IMG/VR virus record: IMGVR_UViG_3300017706_000295
Span: 1 to 25,217 of that record
DNA: 25,217 bases
DNA from: a virus
Reading direction: 5' to 3' (one strand)
Of this stretch, positions 1 to 20,013 are shown piece after piece. Below the pieces are notes generated by a model. It was not told the origin of the DNA. It saw nothing but the letters and a program-made list of their open reading frames with translations, and did not search any database. A program made the position numbers and the translations under genes. Position 1 is the stretch's first letter. The number at the start of each line of letters is the position of its first letter.

Positions 1-2136
1 GCCACCAGAATTGAATACTGCTGATGTTTTACTTAATGAAGCATTTCCGACAGTAAATGTTCCTGATAATACTTGAACATGACCATCTCCATTATCTTTA
101 ATAATACTATTACTACCATCATGGAAAATTTGTAAATCTTGTGAATTACCAAATCTAATAGCATTATTATCTGGAATGTTTACATCTGCAAATTGTGATA
201 TACCAGTTGCAACAACTCTACCAGTTATATTTACTGGGTGTGAGAAATCAAACTCATCGTTTGTAGCATCCCAAAGAATAGTAGCATCTGTTGAAGCATT
301 AACAGCGTCTTGTATAGTAATACCAGCGCCATTTGCATTACCTGAAGTATCATTTGAAGCATGATAGTTTAAAGTTAAATTCTTATCAACAACATCTAAC
401 GTTGTACTATTAACTGTAGTAGTTGTACCTTGAACTGTAAGATTACCACCAACAACAACATTTCCTGCAAAGTCTGCATTTGCTCCTGTTAATGTAAGAG
501 CAAGTGTTTGACTGGTTGGTTTAAATCTTATAGCACCTGTGCCTGTATTTGAGATATCAGCAAAACCATTTGTAGAAAAGTTTAAATCATCGCCTAAAGT
601 TATATCTCCTGATAAATATAAGTCTTTGAATCTTATAGTGTTACCACCTAAGTCTGTGTTGCCGTTATCAATAGCTGCTGTATTGGTTGTAGGAGTAATA
701 GCTCCAGCTCCAAATCTTAGACCTTTATGACCTGAAGCAGTGCTAAGAATTGCTAAATCGCCACTTACAGCATTGATAGCTCCAACACTTGAGCTATCTT
801 TTCTGAAGTCAACAATATTACCATCGCTTGACAGTCTATTAAAGTTAGCTGTTGACCCACCATCTACGACTGGTTGAATTGTTCCTGTGGAAGTGACTGT
901 AAATCCTGCTGTAGAGAAACTATTACTTGTTTTTCCAACAATGAAATTTCCAGAGGCATCGATTCTTGCTGCTTCGCTTCCGCCAATACGCCATCTATGG
1001 ATATTTGGAAGGGTAGCATGAGTTCCGCCGAATAATGAGTAGTTTGCTCCTGAGTTTGTAGCATTACCACCTGATATAGTTATAAGAGAGTTGTCACCAG
1101 TTGGTCTAATACTATCCGTGCTATCAACACGAAGACCATCATTTTCTACTATACCTGTTACGTTTATCCCTGCTGAGGTTGTGGCTAGTTTTTGTGAGCC
1201 ATTGTAATACAAAGCAGCTGCACCACCATTTGTAAATGTTGCAAATCTTGTTGTATCATCATTATCACCTATAACAACATCATCTTCTGATAATATTTTT
1301 ATATCATCACTGTCGCATTTAAGAACTAAATCGCCTGTATTATTGTCTATAAATGAGTTTGAACCATTATGATAAATCTGTAAATCTGAACCTGCACCGA
1401 ATACTGCTTTGTCGTTATCAGCAAATAATATGTCATTACCATTAGAAGCTAAATTACCACCAAGCTGAGGAGTTGTATCTTCTACAACATTGTTTATAGA
1501 AATAGCTTGTGCTCTTGCATCAGTATAATATAAATTGCTTGAACCTTCTCCTAAATCATCAGTATCAAATCCAGTTAAATTTCTTGTAGCAAAACTAACT
1601 GAACCACCCATATATCCATGAGCTGAACATTGGTAATAAAGAACCATTGGAGTATCTTTAGTTGGAACAATTTTTGTATATGCCCCTGAACTACCTGGTG
1701 TTCCACTTGTTGTTACACCTGCTGTATATGCTGTCGTTTTTGCAGCATCATAATAGAATCTTAAAGGATGACCTGAGTTTGAGCTGTCTGATTGGTCAAA
1801 TTGATATGAATTACCTGGTACAAAATTTAAATGAGGTGATTCAATACCATTAATGACATAACCACTGCTTGAACCTGAACCATGATAAACGTGGTCTGTA
1901 GTTTTTGAAGCAACTGCGACAGTAAAATTTTGATTAACAGTTTTTCTTATTTTAAAATAAGTATCTGTTGCGGAGCCGACTTGAATGACGCTATCTAAAC
2001 TACCCTCGGTAGTTTTCATATATAACTTACCGTCGCTAGTATTAACCGCTAACTCACCTAGGTCTAAATTACTTGTTGTTGGAATAGACCCCTGCGTAGC
2101 AGAGCGTCTTAATTTAATATTACTTTGACGTGCCAA
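1..2136 (-). CDS. Tail-fibre-like virion protein with cupredoxin-like domain, TTG start, C-terminus outside window
   Basis: An uninterrupted minus-strand frame of 712 codons runs from a TTG at 2136 to the left edge, where it is still open. The TTG start is chosen because an AGGAG ribosome site lies 9 bases upstream and because the N-terminus (residues 2-13, ARQSNIKLRRSA, then LDLGELAVNTSDGKLYMK at 24-41) has the form usual for marine phage fibre proteins. A cupredoxin-like domain covers about residues 58-183. Next comes an LYYTDARA motif (202-209), then two copies of a DLQI(Y/F)H(N/D)GSNS module (251-261 and 667-677), then a block ending IRFKDLYLSGD (501-511), and then the NLTVQGTTTTVNSTT module (565-579). 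No enzyme motif was seen. It follows the 523-residue fibre gene after an 86-base leader with its own late promoter. Inference: a distal tail or fibre component exposed on the virion. Its exact T4 counterpart, if any, is not recognisable. Confidence 0.85.
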   Translation of the reverse strand, partial: MARQSNIKLRRSATQGSIPTTSNLDLGELAVNTSDGKLYMKTTEGSLDSVIQVGSATDTYFKIRKTVNQNFTVAVASKTTDHVYHGSGSSSGYVINGIESPHLNFVPGNSYQFDQSDSSNSGHPLRFYYDAAKTTAYTAGVTTSGTPGSSGAYTKIVPTKDTPMVLYYQCSAHGYMGGSVSFATRNLTGFDTDDLGEGSSNLYYTDARAQAISINNVVEDTTPQLGGNLASNGNDILFADNDKAVFGAGSDLQIYHNGSNSFIDNNTGDLVLKCDSDDIKILSEDDVVIGDNDDTTRFATFTNGGAAALYYNGSQKLATTSAGINVTGIVENDGLRVDSTDSIRPTGDNSLITISGGNATNSGANYSLFGGTHATLPNIHRWRIGGSEAARIDASGNFIVGKTSNSFSTAGFTVTSTGTIQPVVDGGSTANFNRLSSDGNIVDFRKDSSSVGAINAVSGDLAILSTASGHKGLRFGAGAITPTTNTAAIDNGNTDLGGNTIRFKDLYLSGDITLGDDLNFSTNGFADISNTGTGAIRFKPTSQTLALTLTGANADFAGNVVVGGNLTVQGTTTTVNSTTLDVVDKNLTLNYHASNDTSGNANGAGITIQDAVNASTDATILWDATNDEFDFSHPVNITGRVVATGISQFADVNIPDNNAIRFGNSQDLQIFHDGSNSIIKDNGDGHVQVLSGTFTVGNASLSKTSAVFNSGG
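1588..1965 (-). other. Cupredoxin-like domain (amicyanin-type ligand spacing) within the fibre protein
   Basis: Residues about 58-183 of the TTG-initiated fibre protein. Visible elements are a beta-rich start (FTVAVASKTTDHVYHG), then SPHLNFVPGNSYQF, then DSSNSGHPLRF with His123, and finally VLYYQCSAHGYMGG with Cys170, His173 and Met176. One His upstream followed by Cys-x2-His-x2-Met is the ligand layout of type-1 copper proteins, and the x2/x2 loop matches amicyanin. The domain belongs to a sequence type seen repeatedly in marine phage structural proteins. Copper binding is an inference; the fold could be kept without metal. Confidence 0.6.
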
Positions 2137-2145
2137 TTTTGGCTT

Positions 2146-2150
2146 CTCCT
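2146..2150 (-). promoter_or_regulatory. Ribosome binding site AGGAG deciding the TTG start
   Basis: AGGAG on the minus strand lies 9 bases upstream of TTG at 2136. No in-frame ATG is available between this site and the conserved N-terminal ARQSNIKLRRSA stretch. This supports TTG initiation. Confidence 0.75.
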
Positions 2151-4361: not shown

Positions 4362-4658
4362 TTATACCTTCTTATTTATACTTTTTAATTCTTCAATCTC
4401 AGCTTTTAATTCATTAATAGCATTTATTAATAAAGGAACTAATTTTTCGTATTTAACAGCTTTAAAGCCGTCATGTTCTCTTGTTTCTACAATTTCAGGT
4501 ACTACTTTTTCAACTTCTTGAGCAATCACACCAACATCATGTCCTGAATGAACGACTTGTTTATCATTCCAATCAAATTCATAACCTTTTAATTGTCCTA
4601 CTTTTTCTAATGAATTAGTTATTGGAGATATGTTATCTTTTAATCTTTCATCTGATGA
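4362..4658 (-). other. Peptidase S74 (endosialidase-type) intramolecular chaperone domain
   Basis: Residues 1305-1402 of the giant fibre. The Ser-Asp pair of the SDERLK motif, the GVIAQEV motif and the closing helical coiled coil (LINAINELKAEIEELKSI) define the family. Self-cleavage is expected just before Ser1306, leaving a mature fibre of about 1305 residues. Known for the family; not shown here. Confidence 0.9.
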
Positions 4659-7600
4659 TGCAAAAGCTACAACGTCTCCAGTACATTGAATAGTATTAGC
4701 AGGAGCTGCTGTAGTATCACCAACTCTTAATGCATCGAACTTAACACTACTATTATTATTAGTTGCTTGGTTAGAACTATATGTTGTATATCCTGGACCA
4801 TTTGTAAACTGATTAAGGTTTGAATATGTTGTATTAGTATCTGTAGATGTGATTCTAAATACACCTGTTGATGGTTCAGTAATACTTACATTTGAACCAC
4901 TTTGTAGAGTAATATTACCAGTTCTATAAGCTCCACTATCTTCTCTTATTTGAGTAACTGTGTTAGTATTAGTTACAGTTTCTGTAGCTGATGTAATGCT
5001 AGTAATATGTCCATGTGTATCAAGTAAAATATCTTGAATATATGTTCTACCACTATTATTTACTGATCCTTGACTTGATGTGTCGGCGTGATTAATAGTA
5101 ATAGTTGCATTAGATGATTGGTCAGTTGTAAATGAGCCACCACCTGTCAATGATGTTCCAGCTGAAACACTTATTGTAGCATTATTAGGTATAGTATTTG
5201 TATTATCTGAAGCTGGTAAAGTAACTGTTTTTGTGTTAACTCCAGTTATATGTCCTTGTGAACTTGAACTAACGCTATCAATTACTGTAAATGACTGACC
5301 ATAACCTCTTGACTGAGCACTTGTACTATCACCTCTACTTACATTATCATGTGTTATTGATATAGTACCATTACCTGATTGGTTAGCTGAGAATGTTCCA
5401 GAACCACCTAGTACTCCAGTACCTTGAACTGTTAATGTACCATTACCTAATGTAAATGTACCGGTTGAAGCTGCGGTTACGTGACCATGAGTATCAAAAG
5501 TTAAATCTTGAACAAAGGTTGTACCACTTGCATTTATATTACCAACACTTGATGTATTAGCATGATTAAATGTTATATTATTGTTTGTTGCGCTGTAAGC
5601 TACATCTATTGAAGTTCCGCCAGTAAATGAAACTCTTTCATTTTCTGATATATTACCTCTATCTGTTCCAGCAACTGTTAGATTCCAACCTGAATATGTA
5701 TCAACAGAAACTGTACCTGCTCCTGTTAAACGTCCTTGAGCATCTACTGTAAATGTTGGAATAGCACTACCACTACCATAACTTCCTGCTGTGACTGATG
5801 TATCATCTAATTCAAATGTAATTTTATCTGTTGCACCTCTAGTTGTTATTCCTGTAAGACCTTGGACTCTAAGTGTACCTTGGTTAACACTAGCAATAGC
5901 ATTAGCACCTACGTCGGGGTCAAAACTTCTATAAAAGACCTGCATTGAACCACGGTCGCTATTTGCGTATGAAACTGAATGTGTTGTACCAGATTTTGAT
6001 GTGACCAAGGTCATTCCAGTACCTTCTAAGAAGTTTAAATTATCACCAGACTCAAAATTATTGTTTTCTATCTTTGGTGTACCTTGTGTAGCTGCTGATA
6101 ATATTAATGAACCATCTGCTTCCCATCTATCTGTAGCAAAGTTATATACAATTGAGTGAGAACCAGTTACGTTTGATGCATTATTTGAGTGTGTGCCTAC
6201 ACCTGTAAATGATTTTGTTTCTATACCAAATCCACCAGTTGTTGGCTCAGTACTTGAAGTACCTGTAAGTATTAAAGTATCTTCTACTTCTAATGTTGCT
6301 GTATTTAAGATTGTATTAGTACCATTAACAGTCAAGTCGCCAGTAATTGTTAAATCACCAGGAATAGAAACTGTATCAGATGATTGATTACCTAAAGTAG
6401 TATTTCCACCTACTGTTAAATTTCTTGTTATTGCTAAATCACGAGTGACAGATAAATCTTGTCCTATTGTCACATCATTTGGTAAACCTATAGTGACTGT
6501 TGCAGTTTCAGAACCAGAACCTGATACTTCGATTTCATTTGAAGTACCAGCAATTGTCGAAACATAATTACCAACTGTGTCTGTTCCTAAAGCTATTGAA
6601 TTTGCAGCTATTGTTGTGGCAATACTTACATTACCTAAATTAGTCATTGTTGCTGAACCAGTCACATCTCCTGTTAAAGAAATTGTTGGGTCATTTACAT
6701 TAAAATCAAAGTTTTGATTTGTTGAATCCCATGTTACACTAATTCCTGCTTCAGCATTATTTGTAATTAAATCTTTTGCGTTATAGAATGTTACAATATC
6801 TGCAGTATTTGATGAACCGTTATTAGCCATACCGACAAGTTGCCATGCTCTTTCAGCAGTTGATGATACTAAAGCTTCATTCCATTGTAATCTTACATCA
6901 TGATTAGTCATAGAACCTGATGGAGTGATATGATCTCTATCTACTTGAAGACCCATTTGAGCAACTTCACCATCAAGGTTTAAGAATGCTGAACCAAAGT
7001 TTGCAACACCACCAGCAGCTGATACTAACAATGTACCATCTGATATATCTAAAACTGTTCCTGGACCAAAATCAAATGTTCCCTTACCACCTGTAGCAGT
7101 ATAATTAATATTACCTGAAAGTGATTGGCCACCGGCCGTTGTATTGGTAATATCTAGTTTTTCTGAAGCAAGTTCTCTTAAACCAGCTGATATATCAGTA
7201 GCTGATAAACCTGTAAGAGTCATATTACCGATATCTGCTTCATGTTCGTTAATAGCACCAGTATGAGTACTTGCGCTTGTTGCTAATGTAGCACTTCCTA
7301 ATTCAGAATGTAATTGAGATAAGGCACCTGTAATACTATTATTACCTGAAGCAATAGTTGTAATACCTATGTTACCAATTTGAGTTTCAATTTCTGCAAT
7401 TGCACCACTTACTGTACTTGCTGATGTACCCATTGCAACTGAACTTATTGTTCCTAATTCAGCATCTAATTCATTAACTGCTGCAGTTAAAGTAGAACCT
7501 GTAGTTGTAAGAGTATTATTACCTTGTAAAGCGTCTAATTCGTTGATAGCATCTGTTAAATCGCCAGCAGTTGTTGTTAATGACATATCACCGATATCAG

Positions 7601-8570
7601 TTTCATGTTCATTTACTGCAGTGATTAAATCATTTGCTGTAGTATTTAATGTATAGTTACTTAAGTTGCCTCTTACAGCTGTTTCTAATTCGTTAACAGC
7701 TCCAACAACGTTTGAAGTAATACCAGTACCAAGAGATGTATGAGCACCTAACTCTGTTCTTAATTCTTCAATAGCATCTTGAAAACCAGTAGATGATAAC
7801 CCACTAAATATAACATTACCTGTACCATATAAATCTGTTTCATGCTCATTAATAGCAAGTACAGCATTACCTGCATCTGTTGTTAAATTTTCTGTTACAC
7901 CAATATCGTCTTGTAATTCGTTAATAGCATCTACTAAACTTGTAGCTATTATTTGAATTGAATCACCAACACTCGCAGGTGTTATAAGTTCTATAAGTAA
8001 ACCATGACTAGAATCTATTACAGTATTTGCATTAATGTTTCCAGCACCTATTCTTTTTGCTGCATCAGTATGAGGTATACCTAAGTTTTGACTGTTACTA
8101 AACGTTCCAGTAGTTGATTTAAATCTGATTGTTGTAGTATCTGCAGATAAAACAACTCCTGAGAATCCGCCTGATTGAGTAAGTACTGCATTTTCTACAA
8201 ACTCAGATGGTAATGTAGGTGAACCAGTTAATGTTACTTTTAAAGCATAATTAGGTACAATGTATTGATTTGCTAAAAGACCTTGTTCTAATTCAGTGCC
8301 TTCGCTCTTAACTCTTACAGCTCCAGTTCTAAATGCTTCAGCTACTCCAGTAGTTCTATCAATAGTTTGTTCTGGAAATACTTCAAATCTTCCAGATATT
8401 TCGAAAAGCTTTTGGTTTGCTGTAGCAGTAAACCCGTATGTTTTATCTGTAATATTGTTTGAGAAAAGTTTATTATCACCGACTTTATCGATTGAAAGTT
8501 CATTAGTTTTTTGTCTAAACTCTTCTAATGTATTTGCTTTTAATATTCTGATTTCGTCTCTTATAGCCAT
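4362..8570 (-). CDS. Giant tail fibre with C-terminal S74 intramolecular chaperone (1402 aa)
   Basis: A 1402-residue fibre protein. The N-terminal part (about 1-205) looks globular and includes a Gly/Ser/Thr insert (131-158, TQSGGFSGVV..IRFKSTTGTF). Residues 211-472 hold eleven 23-27-residue repeats of the form AINELxxxIG. Then comes a long beta-repeat shaft with shared modules: LPNDVTIGQDLSV, GDLTVNGTNTILNTATLEVED and SYGSGSAIPTFTVDAQGRL. Three copies of a GHVT/GHIT motif follow. The last 98 residues are a peptidase S74 chaperone with SSDERLKDNI at 1305-1314 and the GVIAQEVEKVVPEIV core. In the S74 family this domain trimerises the fibre and then cuts itself off. The ATG overlaps the stop of the 67-residue gene (TAATG) and has an AGG site upstream. 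Inferred role: trimeric receptor-binding fibre. Confidence 0.9.
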   Translation of the reverse strand: MAIRDEIRILKANTLEEFRQKTNELSIDKVGDNKLFSNNITDKTYGFTATANQKLFEISGRFEVFPEQTIDRTTGVAEAFRTGAVRVKSEGTELEQGLLANQYIVPNYALKVTLTGSPTLPSEFVENAVLTQSGGFSGVVLSADTTTIRFKSTTGTFSNSQNLGIPHTDAAKRIGAGNINANTVIDSSHGLLIELITPASVGDSIQIIATSLVDAINELQDDIGVTENLTTDAGNAVLAINEHETDLYGTGNVIFSGLSSTGFQDAIEELRTELGAHTSLGTGITSNVVGAVNELETAVRGNLSNYTLNTTANDLITAVNEHETDIGDMSLTTTAGDLTDAINELDALQGNNTLTTTGSTLTAAVNELDAELGTISSVAMGTSASTVSGAIAEIETQIGNIGITTIASGNNSITGALSQLHSELGSATLATSASTHTGAINEHEADIGNMTLTGLSATDISAGLRELASEKLDITNTTAGGQSLSGNINYTATGGKGTFDFGPGTVLDISDGTLLVSAAGGVANFGSAFLNLDGEVAQMGLQVDRDHITPSGSMTNHDVRLQWNEALVSSTAERAWQLVGMANNGSSNTADIVTFYNAKDLITNNAEAGISVTWDSTNQNFDFNVNDPTISLTGDVTGSATMTNLGNVSIATTIAANSIALGTDTVGNYVSTIAGTSNEIEVSGSGSETATVTIGLPNDVTIGQDLSVTRDLAITRNLTVGGNTTLGNQSSDTVSIPGDLTITGDLTVNGTNTILNTATLEVEDTLILTGTSSTEPTTGGFGIETKSFTGVGTHSNNASNVTGSHSIVYNFATDRWEADGSLILSAATQGTPKIENNNFESGDNLNFLEGTGMTLVTSKSGTTHSVSYANSDRGSMQVFYRSFDPDVGANAIASVNQGTLRVQGLTGITTRGATDKITFELDDTSVTAGSYGSGSAIPTFTVDAQGRLTGAGTVSVDTYSGWNLTVAGTDRGNISENERVSFTGGTSIDVAYSATNNNITFNHANTSSVGNINASGTTFVQDLTFDTHGHVTAASTGTFTLGNGTLTVQGTGVLGGSGTFSANQSGNGTISITHDNVSRGDSTSAQSRGYGQSFTVIDSVSSSSQGHITGVNTKTVTLPASDNTNTIPNNATISVSAGTSLTGGGSFTTDQSSNATITINHADTSSQGSVNNSGRTYIQDILLDTHGHITSITSATETVTNTNTVTQIREDSGAYRTGNITLQSGSNVSITEPSTGVFRITSTDTNTTYSNLNQFTNGPGYTTYSSNQATNNNSSVKFDALRVGDTTAAPANTIQCTGDVVAFASSDERLKDNISPITNSLEKVGQLKGYEFDWNDKQVVHSGHDVGVIAQEVEKVVPEIVETREHDGFKAVKYEKLVPLLINAINELKAEIEELKSINKKV
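4373..4380 (-). promoter_or_regulatory. T4-type late promoter TATAAATA inside the 3' end of the giant fibre gene
   Basis: An exact octamer overlapping the final codons (Ser-Ile-Asn) of the 1402-residue gene, 21 bases before the ATG of the 112-residue gene. The predicted start near 4367 leaves a leader of about 16 bases that still contains the AAGGA site. Confidence 0.65.
7155..7940 (-). repeat. Eleven coding repeats (AINEL..IG type) in the fibre
   Basis: Protein repeats at residues 211-472 of the giant fibre. The core Ala-Ile/Val-Asn-Glu-Leu/His recurs with alanines (or the equivalent Gly) near 215, 239, 266, 291, 318, 341, 364, 390, 416, 439 and 463. Each core is followed by an acidic heptad-like stretch and a Thr/Ser-rich beta turn such as LTTTAGDLTD. 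The spacing is 23-27 residues. The pattern suggests a segmented helical shaft alternating with short beta turns. Confidence 0.85.
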
Positions 8571-15646: not shown

Positions 15647-18169
15647 TTATTCTATATGTACAAATGTATTTGTATTATAGTTATTTATATCAGTTGAGTC
15701 GATAGTTTGTAACGTTTTGTTACCTAAAAACTCAATAGTTTGATTAGTATTAAAAAGCCTAGATGTATTATAGAAATTGTCTGTGCCTTTCCTTTGTAAG
15801 TAATTATTATTTATAATGGTTCTAAAATTAGGATTTATAACTTTAACTGTGTGTTCTGATAAGAACTTATCTGCGCTTCCAGTTGATGTCATTATTGAAC
15901 CAGTTGTTTGAAGTGGATTAACTTTAATTTCAGTTATTAATGTATCTACATTATTATGATTACAACTTATTTCAGTTATATGTTTTAAATTAGGTACTCT
16001 TGCTTCACTATTTAAAGTACTTCCCAATCTTACAAGTGGATCAGATATATAACCTGAACCAGGTTGTGTTATTGTTACACTATTTATTTCTCCATCTGAA
16101 TTTAAACCGAATGTAGCTGCAGCTAATACGTTAGTAGATAATAAAATACCATCTGCATCTTTTGCTTGAGGTTGAGGAAATACTATACTAGGTGCTGAAG
16201 AATAGTTTTTATTTGCAGTGTTTATAAATTCAACATCTGCAATAGAACCAGCAGCGGCATTACCTGCTACTGAACCAAAGAGTGAAGACCAATTAGAACC
16301 TTCAGATGTTATAACAATATTATCGATATCTAATCTACCATTTGAGTCAATACCAATACTTACTACTGGAGCAACTCCCGTTTCTCCCTCAACATCAATA
16401 CCACTAAATGTAATAGCTGGTGCTGATGTATAACCGAATCCTGGCTCTACAACTTCAATACTTTGTAAAGCGCCGTCAAGTTTTGTAGCTGTTGCTGTTG
16501 CTGTTTGACCAGTGAATGAATGTTCTGTACCTGAACCTACGCCAGATATATTAATTATTGATTCAGATCCGCTTAAAGCTTTTAATTTTACTTTACTACC
16601 AGAAGATGTATGTATTCTATATTGAGTGCCACTTACGATACCAGGAATTGCGCCACCTGAACCTGAGCTATATGTAACTATTGAATTAACTGGTAAAGCA
16701 GCTTGTTGTGCACTTGTAAGTTTAATTGTATCATCATTAATATTTACAATACCTGCTCCTAATACTTCATCATCGCTTCCATCAAATGTAATTGCTGTTG
16801 GAGCTGCGACACTGAGCGATGGTACATTATAATCTTTACCACCATTACCTATTGTAATTCCTGATACTGCTCCATTTGTAAGAGCTGAAGTTAATGTTGC
16901 TGTGGTAAACCCGGCTGGAGTACCTGAATCAGATGATATAATCGTAGGAGCTGAAGTATAACCACTTCCTCCACTTGTTACTGTAACACTGTTAATTACA
17001 CCTGTTTTTAAAGCAACTGAAACAGTAGCTGATTTATGTATTCTTGCAGTTGTTGTAGGTAAGAAAGATGAAGCAAACATTTCAACAAGTACTGGTATAT
17101 CTTCAGGTCCTATAATACCTGGTTGAACACCTGGCATACGACTTAAAGTTAAAGCGTCTGTTAATACTGCTCCTGTTAATTGTAAAAATATTAATATCTC
17201 AGCAAAGTATATAAATCCACTTGGATGTACTAATCTATCAAATGCAAGTTCCCAATCAGATAAATTTTTACCTGTTTTAATAAGGTATGAGAACTTTTGA
17301 TATCTTAAACTATCTTGTACTTTAATACTATCAGATAAGAATCCTTTATTATCTAGGTATTGACCACCTTTTGATAATGCTGGATTAATATCCCAATTAC
17401 CTGATGAAGGTATTAATGTTTTATCATAAGGAAATTCAACTTCTGCAGTATCATTAAATAATATTTTAAAAAATATTTCTACAGAATCAGATGAACCTCT
17501 TAATTTATAAAAGTCTATAATTTGTTTATATAAATTTCTTTTATTTACTGTTACTCCTCTTGGAATAGTAGCAGCAATTTCTTTTTGCATTAATTCTAAA
17601 TAGCTTTCTCCATTTAAATCAATATCCATTGCTTGTTCAATTGTATTCATTACATAAGATGGTCCAGGACCTACCCAGTATTTAACAATTGTAGTTAATT
17701 TAGCTGTATAGTTATTATATGCAGCTAATCCATTCACAGTAAATGTCTTACCAATCTCAGATGTTGAAGCTGCAAGTGTACCTGGTAGTTCATTACCATT
17801 TGTTATTGCTACATTGATACTATTTAATGGTATATTAGTTGTTAAACCAGCTGGATCTGTTAAAACAAGTAATGAACTTGCACCTGACTCATCAGTAAAG
17901 AATCTATTATTTTCATTCTTAGGATCGGGTATTCTAAACTGAGCTTGACCATTTAAAATAATATCACTAAAGTCTTCATTCTCTTGATATATAAACTCAT
18001 CCATATTTTGAAACGCATAATACGCTTCTAAAAATTTAGTAAGTTGAACTTTATCTGATAATATCTCAGAAGGTATTAATTGGTCAATACGTATATCTTC
18101 TTTTGTTTGAGATAATGTTCCCTGTTCGACTTCAATCGCACCGGGAGTTAAATGAGACTTATATGACAT
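15647..18169 (-). CDS. gpI/gp7-like baseplate wedge protein with GGxGY repeats (840 aa)
   Basis: An 840-residue protein just after gp6, the place of T4 gene 7. The N-terminal part contains IDQLIPSEILSDKVQLTKFL (28-47) and AYYAFQNM (49-56). At about 204-250 it has the hallmark NKRNLYKQIIDFYKLRGSS then VEIFFKILF and EVEFPYDKTLIPSSG. This pattern is typical of gpI-type wedge proteins that pair with gp6/gpJ. Residues about 396-716 contain five degenerate GGSGYTSAPTI-type beta repeats. The C-terminus is Asn/Thr-rich. Its ATG overlaps the stop of gp6 by one base, which suggests coupled, stoichiometric translation. Equivalence with T4 gp7 (1032 aa) rests on position and the motif, not on overall similarity. 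Confidence 0.72.
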   Translation of the reverse strand: MSYKSHLTPGAIEVEQGTLSQTKEDIRIDQLIPSEILSDKVQLTKFLEAYYAFQNMDEFIYQENEDFSDIILNGQAQFRIPDPKNENNRFFTDESGASSLLVLTDPAGLTTNIPLNSINVAITNGNELPGTLAASTSEIGKTFTVNGLAAYNNYTAKLTTIVKYWVGPGPSYVMNTIEQAMDIDLNGESYLELMQKEIAATIPRGVTVNKRNLYKQIIDFYKLRGSSDSVEIFFKILFNDTAEVEFPYDKTLIPSSGNWDINPALSKGGQYLDNKGFLSDSIKVQDSLRYQKFSYLIKTGKNLSDWELAFDRLVHPSGFIYFAEILIFLQLTGAVLTDALTLSRMPGVQPGIIGPEDIPVLVEMFASSFLPTTTARIHKSATVSVALKTGVINSVTVTSGGSGYTSAPTIISSDSGTPAGFTTATLTSALTNGAVSGITIGNGGKDYNVPSLSVAAPTAITFDGSDDEVLGAGIVNINDDTIKLTSAQQAALPVNSIVTYSSGSGGAIPGIVSGTQYRIHTSSGSKVKLKALSGSESIINISGVGSGTEHSFTGQTATATATKLDGALQSIEVVEPGFGYTSAPAITFSGIDVEGETGVAPVVSIGIDSNGRLDIDNIVITSEGSNWSSLFGSVAGNAAAGSIADVEFINTANKNYSSAPSIVFPQPQAKDADGILLSTNVLAAATFGLNSDGEINSVTITQPGSGYISDPLVRLGSTLNSEARVPNLKHITEISCNHNNVDTLITEIKVNPLQTTGSIMTSTGSADKFLSEHTVKVINPNFRTIINNNYLQRKGTDNFYNTSRLFNTNQTIEFLGNKTLQTIDSTDINNYNTNTFVHIE
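15682..15689 (-). promoter_or_regulatory. T4-type late promoter TATAAATA upstream of gp8-like gene
   Basis: An exact octamer inside the last codons (Asp-Ile-Asn-Asn) of the 840-residue gene, 51 bases before the gp8 ATG. A second exact octamer at 15808-15815 in the same gene is more likely a chance Ile-Asn codon match. Confidence 0.55.
16022..16984 (-). repeat. GGxGYxSxP coding repeats in the wedge protein
   Basis: Protein repeats at residues 396-716. The units are SGGSGYTSAPTIISSDSG, GNGGKDYNVPSLSV, EPGFGYTSAPAITFSG, TANKNYSSAPSIVFPQP and QPGSGYISDPLVRLG. Each is followed by an Ala/Thr-rich strand pair. The same unit occurs once or twice in the neighbouring gp8-like protein. Confidence 0.85.
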
Positions 18170-20013
18170 TATTTAAATCTTGATGTTGTGTTATAGTTTA
18201 TACTACCAGCTGAACCAGCAACTGCGATAGTATCTATTTCTGGTGTTATTGAAACACTATTATTATCTATAGAAATTAATTCGGCTCTCTTTGGAGCAAG
18301 GTCTAATGAGTTAGGTAATAAAGTTATTTTAATCGGTGTTGTAGTATCTGGTCTAAAGTTATTTAAAGTTACTTTTCCTTTTTCTACATCAATGAGACCA
18401 GCATCATTTATAACAGTTACATTAGTTAAACCAACAACTTTATATACAATAACTTTTCTTTGTGTTGAACCACTTATAGGAACATCACCAAAGAAATGTA
18501 CTACATTATTAATAGTAAATCCTGATGATTTTAAAATAAATGCTGTTGATTGCCCTGATTGAAAGAATGGAGCAACAAAAGAAAGATCAAAATTATTATC
18601 TGAATTATTACTCGGTGTAATGTTTTGAAACATTCTTGGTCTTACAATTGTATTTAATATTGATGGGTCAGAATTATCAATTGCTTTTGTTAATTGTGAA
18701 TGCCTAAATACACCATCAAATTTATTTAAATTATTAAAGTTATAATCTGTTATTGTATCTCTTACAACTGATTGTAATTCAACAGAACTTCTATCAGTTA
18801 AGTTAGGATTATATTTAAATGCTGCATCTAATTCTAAATAAGTAAAATTAGTATCTACAATTTCTGGTATAATAGAAACTACATTCTTACCTTTTAAAAT
18901 TGCGCCAGTAATATCTGTTTTTTCAGCGGTTGTAAGTGTTTCAGCTAATAAAGGTTTGATTGCAATATAAACTTTACCGTAATCAGGTGGATCGTTATCT
19001 TCACCACCCCATGTTGATATTGAATCTATATTACTAAACTCTTTTTTAATAATCGCTGCGTAATCATCGGCTGTGACAGCTCTGTTTTGAGATATAAATG
19101 TTAATGGTGCGTTAAAACGTATAGATTCCATTGTTTCTTCTTCAGCTCCACCTGTTGCAGCTGACGCTAATGTGACAGTAATACTACTATATCCATTGAT
19201 ATCATCTAACATATCAAAATTATTAGCACCGTTTGATTCTATACCTTCTGTAATTACATAATCAAGAGTTATAATATTATTATTTGCTGGTTTAAATCCA
19301 GTAATACCATCACCGAAGTATACTTCAAAGAATCCACTTGGATTTTCTTGTAGATAATAAACCTTTGATGTTGAATCAACACCTCTTAATGTTTCAAAAG
19401 GAGTGTATATATCGAATGAGCTTGACTCTTCGTTTGACTGTACTCTTACTCTTAATGTACTTGAATCTGCGTTATAATCAGTAAGTTGAAACTTTTGATT
19501 CTCAATATCATTATCAACTCTATATTTTAATTCTCTTACAGAACCTTCTGCAATAACAACATCATTAAATGTATATGTTGTACCTGTTAATGTTGCTTGT
19601 TGAGTTTCTAATACCACGTATTGAAATTCTTCTCCACTTACAACAGTATTTAATTTAGTACCACGTTTTAATTCTAAAACAGTTGGTATTGTTCCTATTT
19701 CGCCTGAGATATCAACAACAATATTAACTTTACCTCTTGGAGATAAAACTGATCGCGGTGTATAACCTAAAAGCTTTGCTCTTGTGACTACATTACCTCT
19801 TATCTGAGCTGAATCTAAGAATGATTCATTTAATGAGTAGTGAGCGTTTAATGCGTTATAATGAGTATTATAAGCTAATACATCTAATAAAACATTAAGG
19901 CCTGAACCATCAAAATCATAGTCACTAAACTCTGATTGTTGTTTTAAAAAGTTTTTTAAATTTTGCTTTATATCTGCAAAATCTAATTCTGTTACATTTA
20001 AATTTGTTGCCAT
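18169..20013 (-). CDS. gp6: Baseplate wedge protein gp6 (gpJ-like, 614 aa)
   Basis: Homologue of T4 gp6 (660 aa), the wedge protein that forms the inner baseplate ring and undergoes the main change at contraction. The N-terminal region (about 35-70) carries DGSGLNVLLDVLAYNTHYNA and LNESFLDSAQIRGN, typical of the gp6/gpJ family. The central region has FEVYFGDGITGFKP and AVTADDYAAIIKKEF, the conserved gpJ-core motifs. The length is close to T4 gp6. It follows gp25 by one base and has AGAAGG about 11 bases upstream; its stop overlaps the next start. The order gp25-gp6-gpI/gp7 is the conserved core of contractile baseplates. Confidence 0.94.
   Translation of the reverse strand: MATNLNVTELDFADIKQNLKNFLKQQSEFSDYDFDGSGLNVLLDVLAYNTHYNALNAHYSLNESFLDSAQIRGNVVTRAKLLGYTPRSVLSPRGKVNIVVDISGEIGTIPTVLELKRGTKLNTVVSGEEFQYVVLETQQATLTGTTYTFNDVVIAEGSVRELKYRVDNDIENQKFQLTDYNADSSTLRVRVQSNEESSSFDIYTPFETLRGVDSTSKVYYLQENPSGFFEVYFGDGITGFKPANNNIITLDYVITEGIESNGANNFDMLDDINGYSSITVTLASAATGGAEEETMESIRFNAPLTFISQNRAVTADDYAAIIKKEFSNIDSISTWGGEDNDPPDYGKVYIAIKPLLAETLTTAEKTDITGAILKGKNVVSIIPEIVDTNFTYLELDAAFKYNPNLTDRSSVELQSVVRDTITDYNFNNLNKFDGVFRHSQLTKAIDNSDPSILNTIVRPRMFQNITPSNNSDNNFDLSFVAPFFQSGQSTAFILKSSGFTINNVVHFFGDVPISGSTQRKVIVYKVVGLTNVTVINDAGLIDVEKGKVTLNNFRPDTTTPIKITLLPNSLDLAPKRAELISIDNNSVSITPEIDTIAVAGSAGSINYNTTSRFK

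Follow-up and report, generated by a model that had tools for sequence, protein, structure and literature searches.

A segment close to the N-terminus of a tail fibre encoded by a marine T4-like phage is probably a cupredoxin domain with a complete set of type-1 copper ligands. That the segment adopts the cupredoxin fold is nearly certain, and the fold, the ligands and their conservation among relatives make it likely that the domain binds a metal. On balance, copper would be the natural metal of this domain, and a direct role of the domain in host binding is rather doubtful. If this assignment is true, ocean phage virions commonly contain a copper-protein fold, with at least 542 matching stretches found in the viral collection, and phage particles are tied to copper chemistry in sea water. 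A candidate, testable metal site would then be located on the fibres of phages infecting SAR11, OM43, Prochlorococcus and Synechococcus, and phages with such fibres may carry copper on them.

The fibre gene and the candidate ligands

The window (the whole stretch of DNA analyzed, a virus record of 25,217 bases) carries, on its minus strand, the part of a marine T4-like phage genome that encodes baseplate and fibres. A gp6-like baseplate wedge encoded at 18169-20013 shows 40% identity to that of Methylophilales phage Melnitz, 39.8% to Pelagibacter phage Mosig and 38% to HTVC008M, and the region 4362-8570 encodes a fibre ending in peptidase-S74. The fibre gene of interest (Table 1) runs off the edge of the window after 712 amino acids. 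Its product matches phrog_30742, denoted 'tail fiber protein' (E 4.8e-49), and its TTG start has GGAG ahead and is kept in relatives. The N-terminal segment is shared between fibres that have the cupredoxin domain and fibres that lack it, and is probably the part attached to the virion. A perfect 12-bp palindrome, GCCAAAATTGGC, contains the TTG start behind the GGAG. Of 25 close relatives, 24 share it without any change and L341 has one mismatch; it occurs once per locus and is also present in two relatives that do not encode the cupredoxin domain.

Table 1. Features of the fibre gene (window coordinates; residue numbers refer to the fibre protein)
Feature	Position	Strand	Basis or remark
Tail-fibre gene	1..2136	-	TTG start at 2134-2136; 3' end beyond window
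N-terminal segment, residues 1-55 (MARQSNIKLRRSATQGSIPTTSNLDLGELAVNTSDGKLYMKTT...)	1972..2136	-	Match to phrog_29752
Cupredoxin domain (probable), residues 66-183	1588..1941	-	AlphaFold2 model, PDB matches, profile comparison
His123, equatorial ligand candidate, followed by Pro	1768..1770	-	Invariant in window-clade alignment A1
Cys170, thiolate ligand candidate, sole Cys of the domain	1627..1629	-	Conservation in relatives
His173, second equatorial His candidate	1618..1620	-	Conservation in relatives
Met176, axial ligand candidate	1609..1611	-	Conservation; Leu in L291/L293
His82	1891..1893	-	Invariant in the window's own clade, absent from distant relatives
Rest of fibre, residues 190 onward, repetitive and beta-rich	1..1569	-	Translation, phrog search
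GGAG ribosome-binding site and 12-bp palindrome GCCAAAATTGGC across the TTG start	2132..2149	-	

The four residues proposed as ligands in the first-pass annotation, His123 (SNSGHPLRF), Cys170, His173 and Met176 (YYQCSAHGYMGG), are all found at the claimed positions in the translation of 1-2136. The amicyanin spacing proposed along with them applies to the C-x2-H-x2-M loop only. The distance from His to Cys, 47 residues, exceeds that of amicyanin (39 residues) and is the same as in plastocyanin. The 8177 amino acids encoded in the window contain a single instance of a His with C-x2-H-x2-M 35-55 residues further on; shuffling the residues of each protein gives an expectation of 0.001. The domain had been placed at 1588-1965, which corresponds to residues 58-183; homology to phrog_30742 spans residues 66-183. 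A search of the window with a ligand-masked profile found no second copy of the domain. His82 was considered as an extra ligand or core-site residue and was dropped, since it is missing in distant relatives.

Predicted fold and relation to blue-copper families

An AlphaFold2 model of the domain, built from the window-clade alignment A1 (44 sequences), is all beta (mean pLDDT 89, pTM 0.82), and its best matches in the PDB are cupredoxins, in agreement with the cupredoxin-like reading proposed initially. In domain numbering, His69 immediately precedes strand 71-74 and Cys116 terminates strand 111-116; the loop leading to strand 124-128 carries His119 and Met122. In the model, the four ligands thus placed occupy the cupredoxin ligand positions relative to the strands: an upstream His, then a single C-terminal loop with Cys, His and Met, all at the expected strands. 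A Greek-key beta-sandwich is likewise predicted, the topology being judged via structural matches and not drawn by hand.

Among 350,542 PDB chains, Foldseek returned nine matches at E≤0.001, comprising eight rusticyanins and one pseudoazurin, followed by small laccases and by a pseudoazurin engineered to carry an amicyanin loop. The TM-scores of these matches were modest (about 0.4-0.5), and the model was therefore re-aligned with VIA-align. The best result (Z 8.7, rmsd 2.9, 101 residues) was obtained with 6tfo, the N-terminal cupredoxin domain of a three-domain nitrite reductase. Since a Z near 8 alone may reflect a common arrangement, a sister clade was modelled separately from its own alignment, A2 (pLDDT 88). 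This second model matched the N-terminal cupredoxin domain of the nitrite reductase 2dv6 with Z 10.9 (rmsd 1.9, 90 residues) and rusticyanin with Z 10.6, and its Foldseek matches include amicyanin, plastocyanin, auracyanin and pseudoazurin.

When the window domain alone was compared with Pfam, no significant family was obtained and no PF00127 match was listed at E≤10; the domain is therefore filed as a cupredoxin fold and not as a member of PF00127. Searches of the domain alone against NCBIfam, PADLOC and with phmmer yielded no significant family either. A match of the full protein to NCBIfam mCpol (residues 189-252) was discarded, being below the cut-off and outside the domain.

Judged from profile comparisons, sequence homology to known cupredoxins is detectable through the sister clade. 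A fibre domain of this clade, located on a phage contig binned as Rickettsiales (L087), scores 21.6 bits against PF00127 Copper-bind (cut-off 21.2) and is also recovered by the window-clade profile (8.6e-12). In cyanophage P-HM1, a second domain gives a match to plastocyanin 1b3i (E 6e-5). HHalign aligns the window clade (A1) with the sister clade at a probability of 99.3% and the sister clade with bacterial cupredoxins at 94.7%; the window clade compared directly with cupredoxins reaches only 47%. These alignments pair His with His, Cys with Cys, His with His and Met with Met. The real scores of 28.0 and 44.2 exceed the largest of 100 column shuffles (15.9 and 19.5) as well as a reversed-profile score of about 12. 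At the level of sequence profiles, the sister clade ties the window domain to plastocyanin and amicyanin.

Ligand conservation, metal binding and alternative readings

Conservation of the ligands was assessed with controls, as some scans of the collection used patterns containing the Cys-His motif, which biases them to conserved copies. In the first control, six patterns confined to residues 1-110 and lacking any of the four ligands recovered 54 loci. A profile without the loop then gave C-x2-H-x2-M in 166 of 167 distinct domains from loci including those 54. The free loss of ligands in homologues, which the first-pass annotation had named as an argument against its proposal, was not seen: with the ligand columns masked, 217 distinct domains had all columns filled, and 212 of them show His, Cys, His and Met. 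The others comprise two with HCHL, one with HSHM and two in which Cys, His and Met are lost together. Among representatives at 50% identity, all four ligands are present in 11 of 13; the loci from the collection scans do not represent a random sample.

The deviating copies can be assigned to a few loci. In L291 and L293 (3001-3315), the axial Met is replaced by Leu (CTAHAALNG), and Cys and both His are kept; natural type-1 sites tolerate this exchange. The first copy in L076-L078 carries Ser in place of Cys (YYQSSSHDYMG), and the second copy in the same locus has the Cys. The degenerate copies are those of L161 (855-969 of the ORF) and L297 (133-254 of the ORF); L161 also has an intact copy, and L297 an intact-type match elsewhere in the locus. 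An intradomain disulfide as the reason for keeping the Cys was rejected, because 209 of 214 intact copies have a single Cys in the domain. The ligand conservation and the lone Cys fit selection on one metal site.

The intact ligand set would most likely be metal-loaded on the virion. The fibre would be made in the cytoplasm as an apo- or zinc-protein and take up copper in sea water after lysis; loading at this late stage is probable because the cytoplasm is copper-poor. The bound metal would lock the Cys-His-Met loop, and the domain would then be a compact fibre element for bracing or display, possibly contacting an outer-membrane receptor. Being close to the N-terminus, the domain is more readily seen as a brace or side display than as the receptor-binding tip. 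Several points are counted against this reading of the domain: the missing PF00127 match, the low direct profile probability, the one copy with Ser at the Cys position, a first His followed by Pro and not by the Asn of most small cupredoxins, and the synthesis of phage fibres in a copper-poor cytoplasm.

A more far-reaching proposal, in which the fibres bear true blue-copper sites and the copper or its redox state is used in finding or docking to the host, is unlikely. Copper would here play the part that iron has in the 'Trojan horse' proposal. A genuine, though less likely, alternative to copper is a cupredoxin fold with zinc (or Cu(I)) as its natural metal, which would only stiffen the loop and support no redox or blue-copper chemistry. 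In favour of zinc, fibres are assembled in a cytoplasm with zinc and almost no free copper, recombinant azurin picks up zinc, and a location beside the fibre N-terminus is better suited to bracing than to receptor contact at a tip. Against zinc argues the axial position, since Met or Leu is typical of copper sites and unneeded by zinc; of the 215 copies with His, Cys/Ser and His intact, 213 have Met.

There is also a small chance that the domain is a metal-free adhesive or structural module whose ligand-like residues serve packing or receptor contact. The use of the fold as a module in several fibre contexts and the clade with Ser instead of Cys would agree with this. Arguments against it are the near-invariance of Cys, His, His and Met at less than 50% identity, where most other columns vary, the joint loss of Cys, His and Met in the two degenerate copies, and the retention of a lone free Cys in an extracellular protein. 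That the residues coincide by chance within an unrelated stretch of beta-rich fibre, conceivable as phage fibres are rich in beta structure, is refuted for practical purposes by the expectation of 0.001 per window, the PDB fold matches, the ligand invariance and the Copper-bind match in the sister clade.

Distribution and comparison with known systems

Together with the small cupredoxins (PF00127: plastocyanin, amicyanin, pseudoazurin; also rusticyanin), the window domain shares the predicted fold, the order of the ligands and their positions on the strands, and its C-x2-H-x2-M loop is spaced as in amicyanin. In contrast to these small soluble electron carriers, it is part of a large virion fibre, comprises about 120 residues and has His-Pro at the first ligand, where most small cupredoxins have His-Asn. 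The type-1 site of multicopper oxidases (HPxHLH) resembles this His-Pro. The domain is not filed as an amicyanin, its best fold matches being rusticyanin, pseudoazurin and the nitrite reductase domain.

The fibres of P-SSM2, Bellamy, P-TIM68, Mosig and Melnitz as well as phrog_30742 contain the same domain, 45-70% identical and with the same ligands. In the records examined they are annotated as tail fibre or hypothetical, with the copper-protein fold unnamed; a domain so far denoted 'tail fiber' or 'hypothetical' would gain a name and a structural class. Marine T4-like cyanophages were reported to carry petE (plastocyanin) as an auxiliary gene (PMC3037559). In both cases, marine T4-like phages encode a fold of type-1 copper proteins; the petE product is a free photosynthetic electron carrier, whereas the window fold belongs to the virion. 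The nearest published idea to copper on fibres is iron on tail fibres, as in the HxH fibres of T4 (gp37) and Alteromonas phage R22Y (PMC11705849) and in the 'Ferrojan/Trojan horse' hypothesis. There, too, a metal site is proposed on a phage fibre; those fibres are trimeric and hold iron by HxH motifs, whereas the window fibre has another ligand set and fold and contains no HxH motif. No report of cupredoxin or plastocyanin-like domains in phage virions was found in the literature searched, which was mainly open-access. The fold and ligand set are already known; their use as a virion fibre module did not turn up in this literature.

Phages with the domain include T4-like ones infecting Prochlorococcus, Synechococcus, Pelagibacter and OM43, and pelagiphages of podovirus size (e.g. 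the 39-kb pelagiphage Baldr). It also occurs in very large virion proteins of cyanophages, in a phage region that forms part of a SAR11 single-cell genome (L085) and in bacterial proteins that are exported; 'beta-sandwich' proteins of giant viruses show the same fold. The domain is a mobile module across fibre contexts. The N-terminal segment, present in 34 loci, leads into the cupredoxin domain in 23 and into something else in 11. In fibres of the window type, the domain follows this segment ahead of the shaft; in L087 it forms the C-terminal end of the fibre, and L048 and L062 have two copies per locus.

The possibility that the domain is a host gene in L085-L087 was rejected, as its neighbours are phage structural genes. 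L082-L084 are probably binned phage contigs too. Among them, L082 (NHBP01000115.1), labelled as a Planctomycetaceae MAG, carries a domain 94% identical to that of the window; this contig is probably phage DNA that was binned into a bacterial genome.

Like copper proteins, the cellular relatives show N-termini resembling signal peptides or are joined to domains of exported proteins. In a 5.7-Mb bacterial genome from the same phylum as the SAR11 single-cell genome (L368), two adjacent small exported proteins contain one domain of this kind each; one of them was scanned and gave no Pfam match. Three exported proteins of Bacteroidota (L371, L372 and L376) combine CHRD or Fasciclin repeats with the same cupredoxin-like domain. 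These proteins share with the window fibre the domain, as recognized by profile, and its ligands, and differ from it in being cellular and in their signal-peptide-like N-termini.
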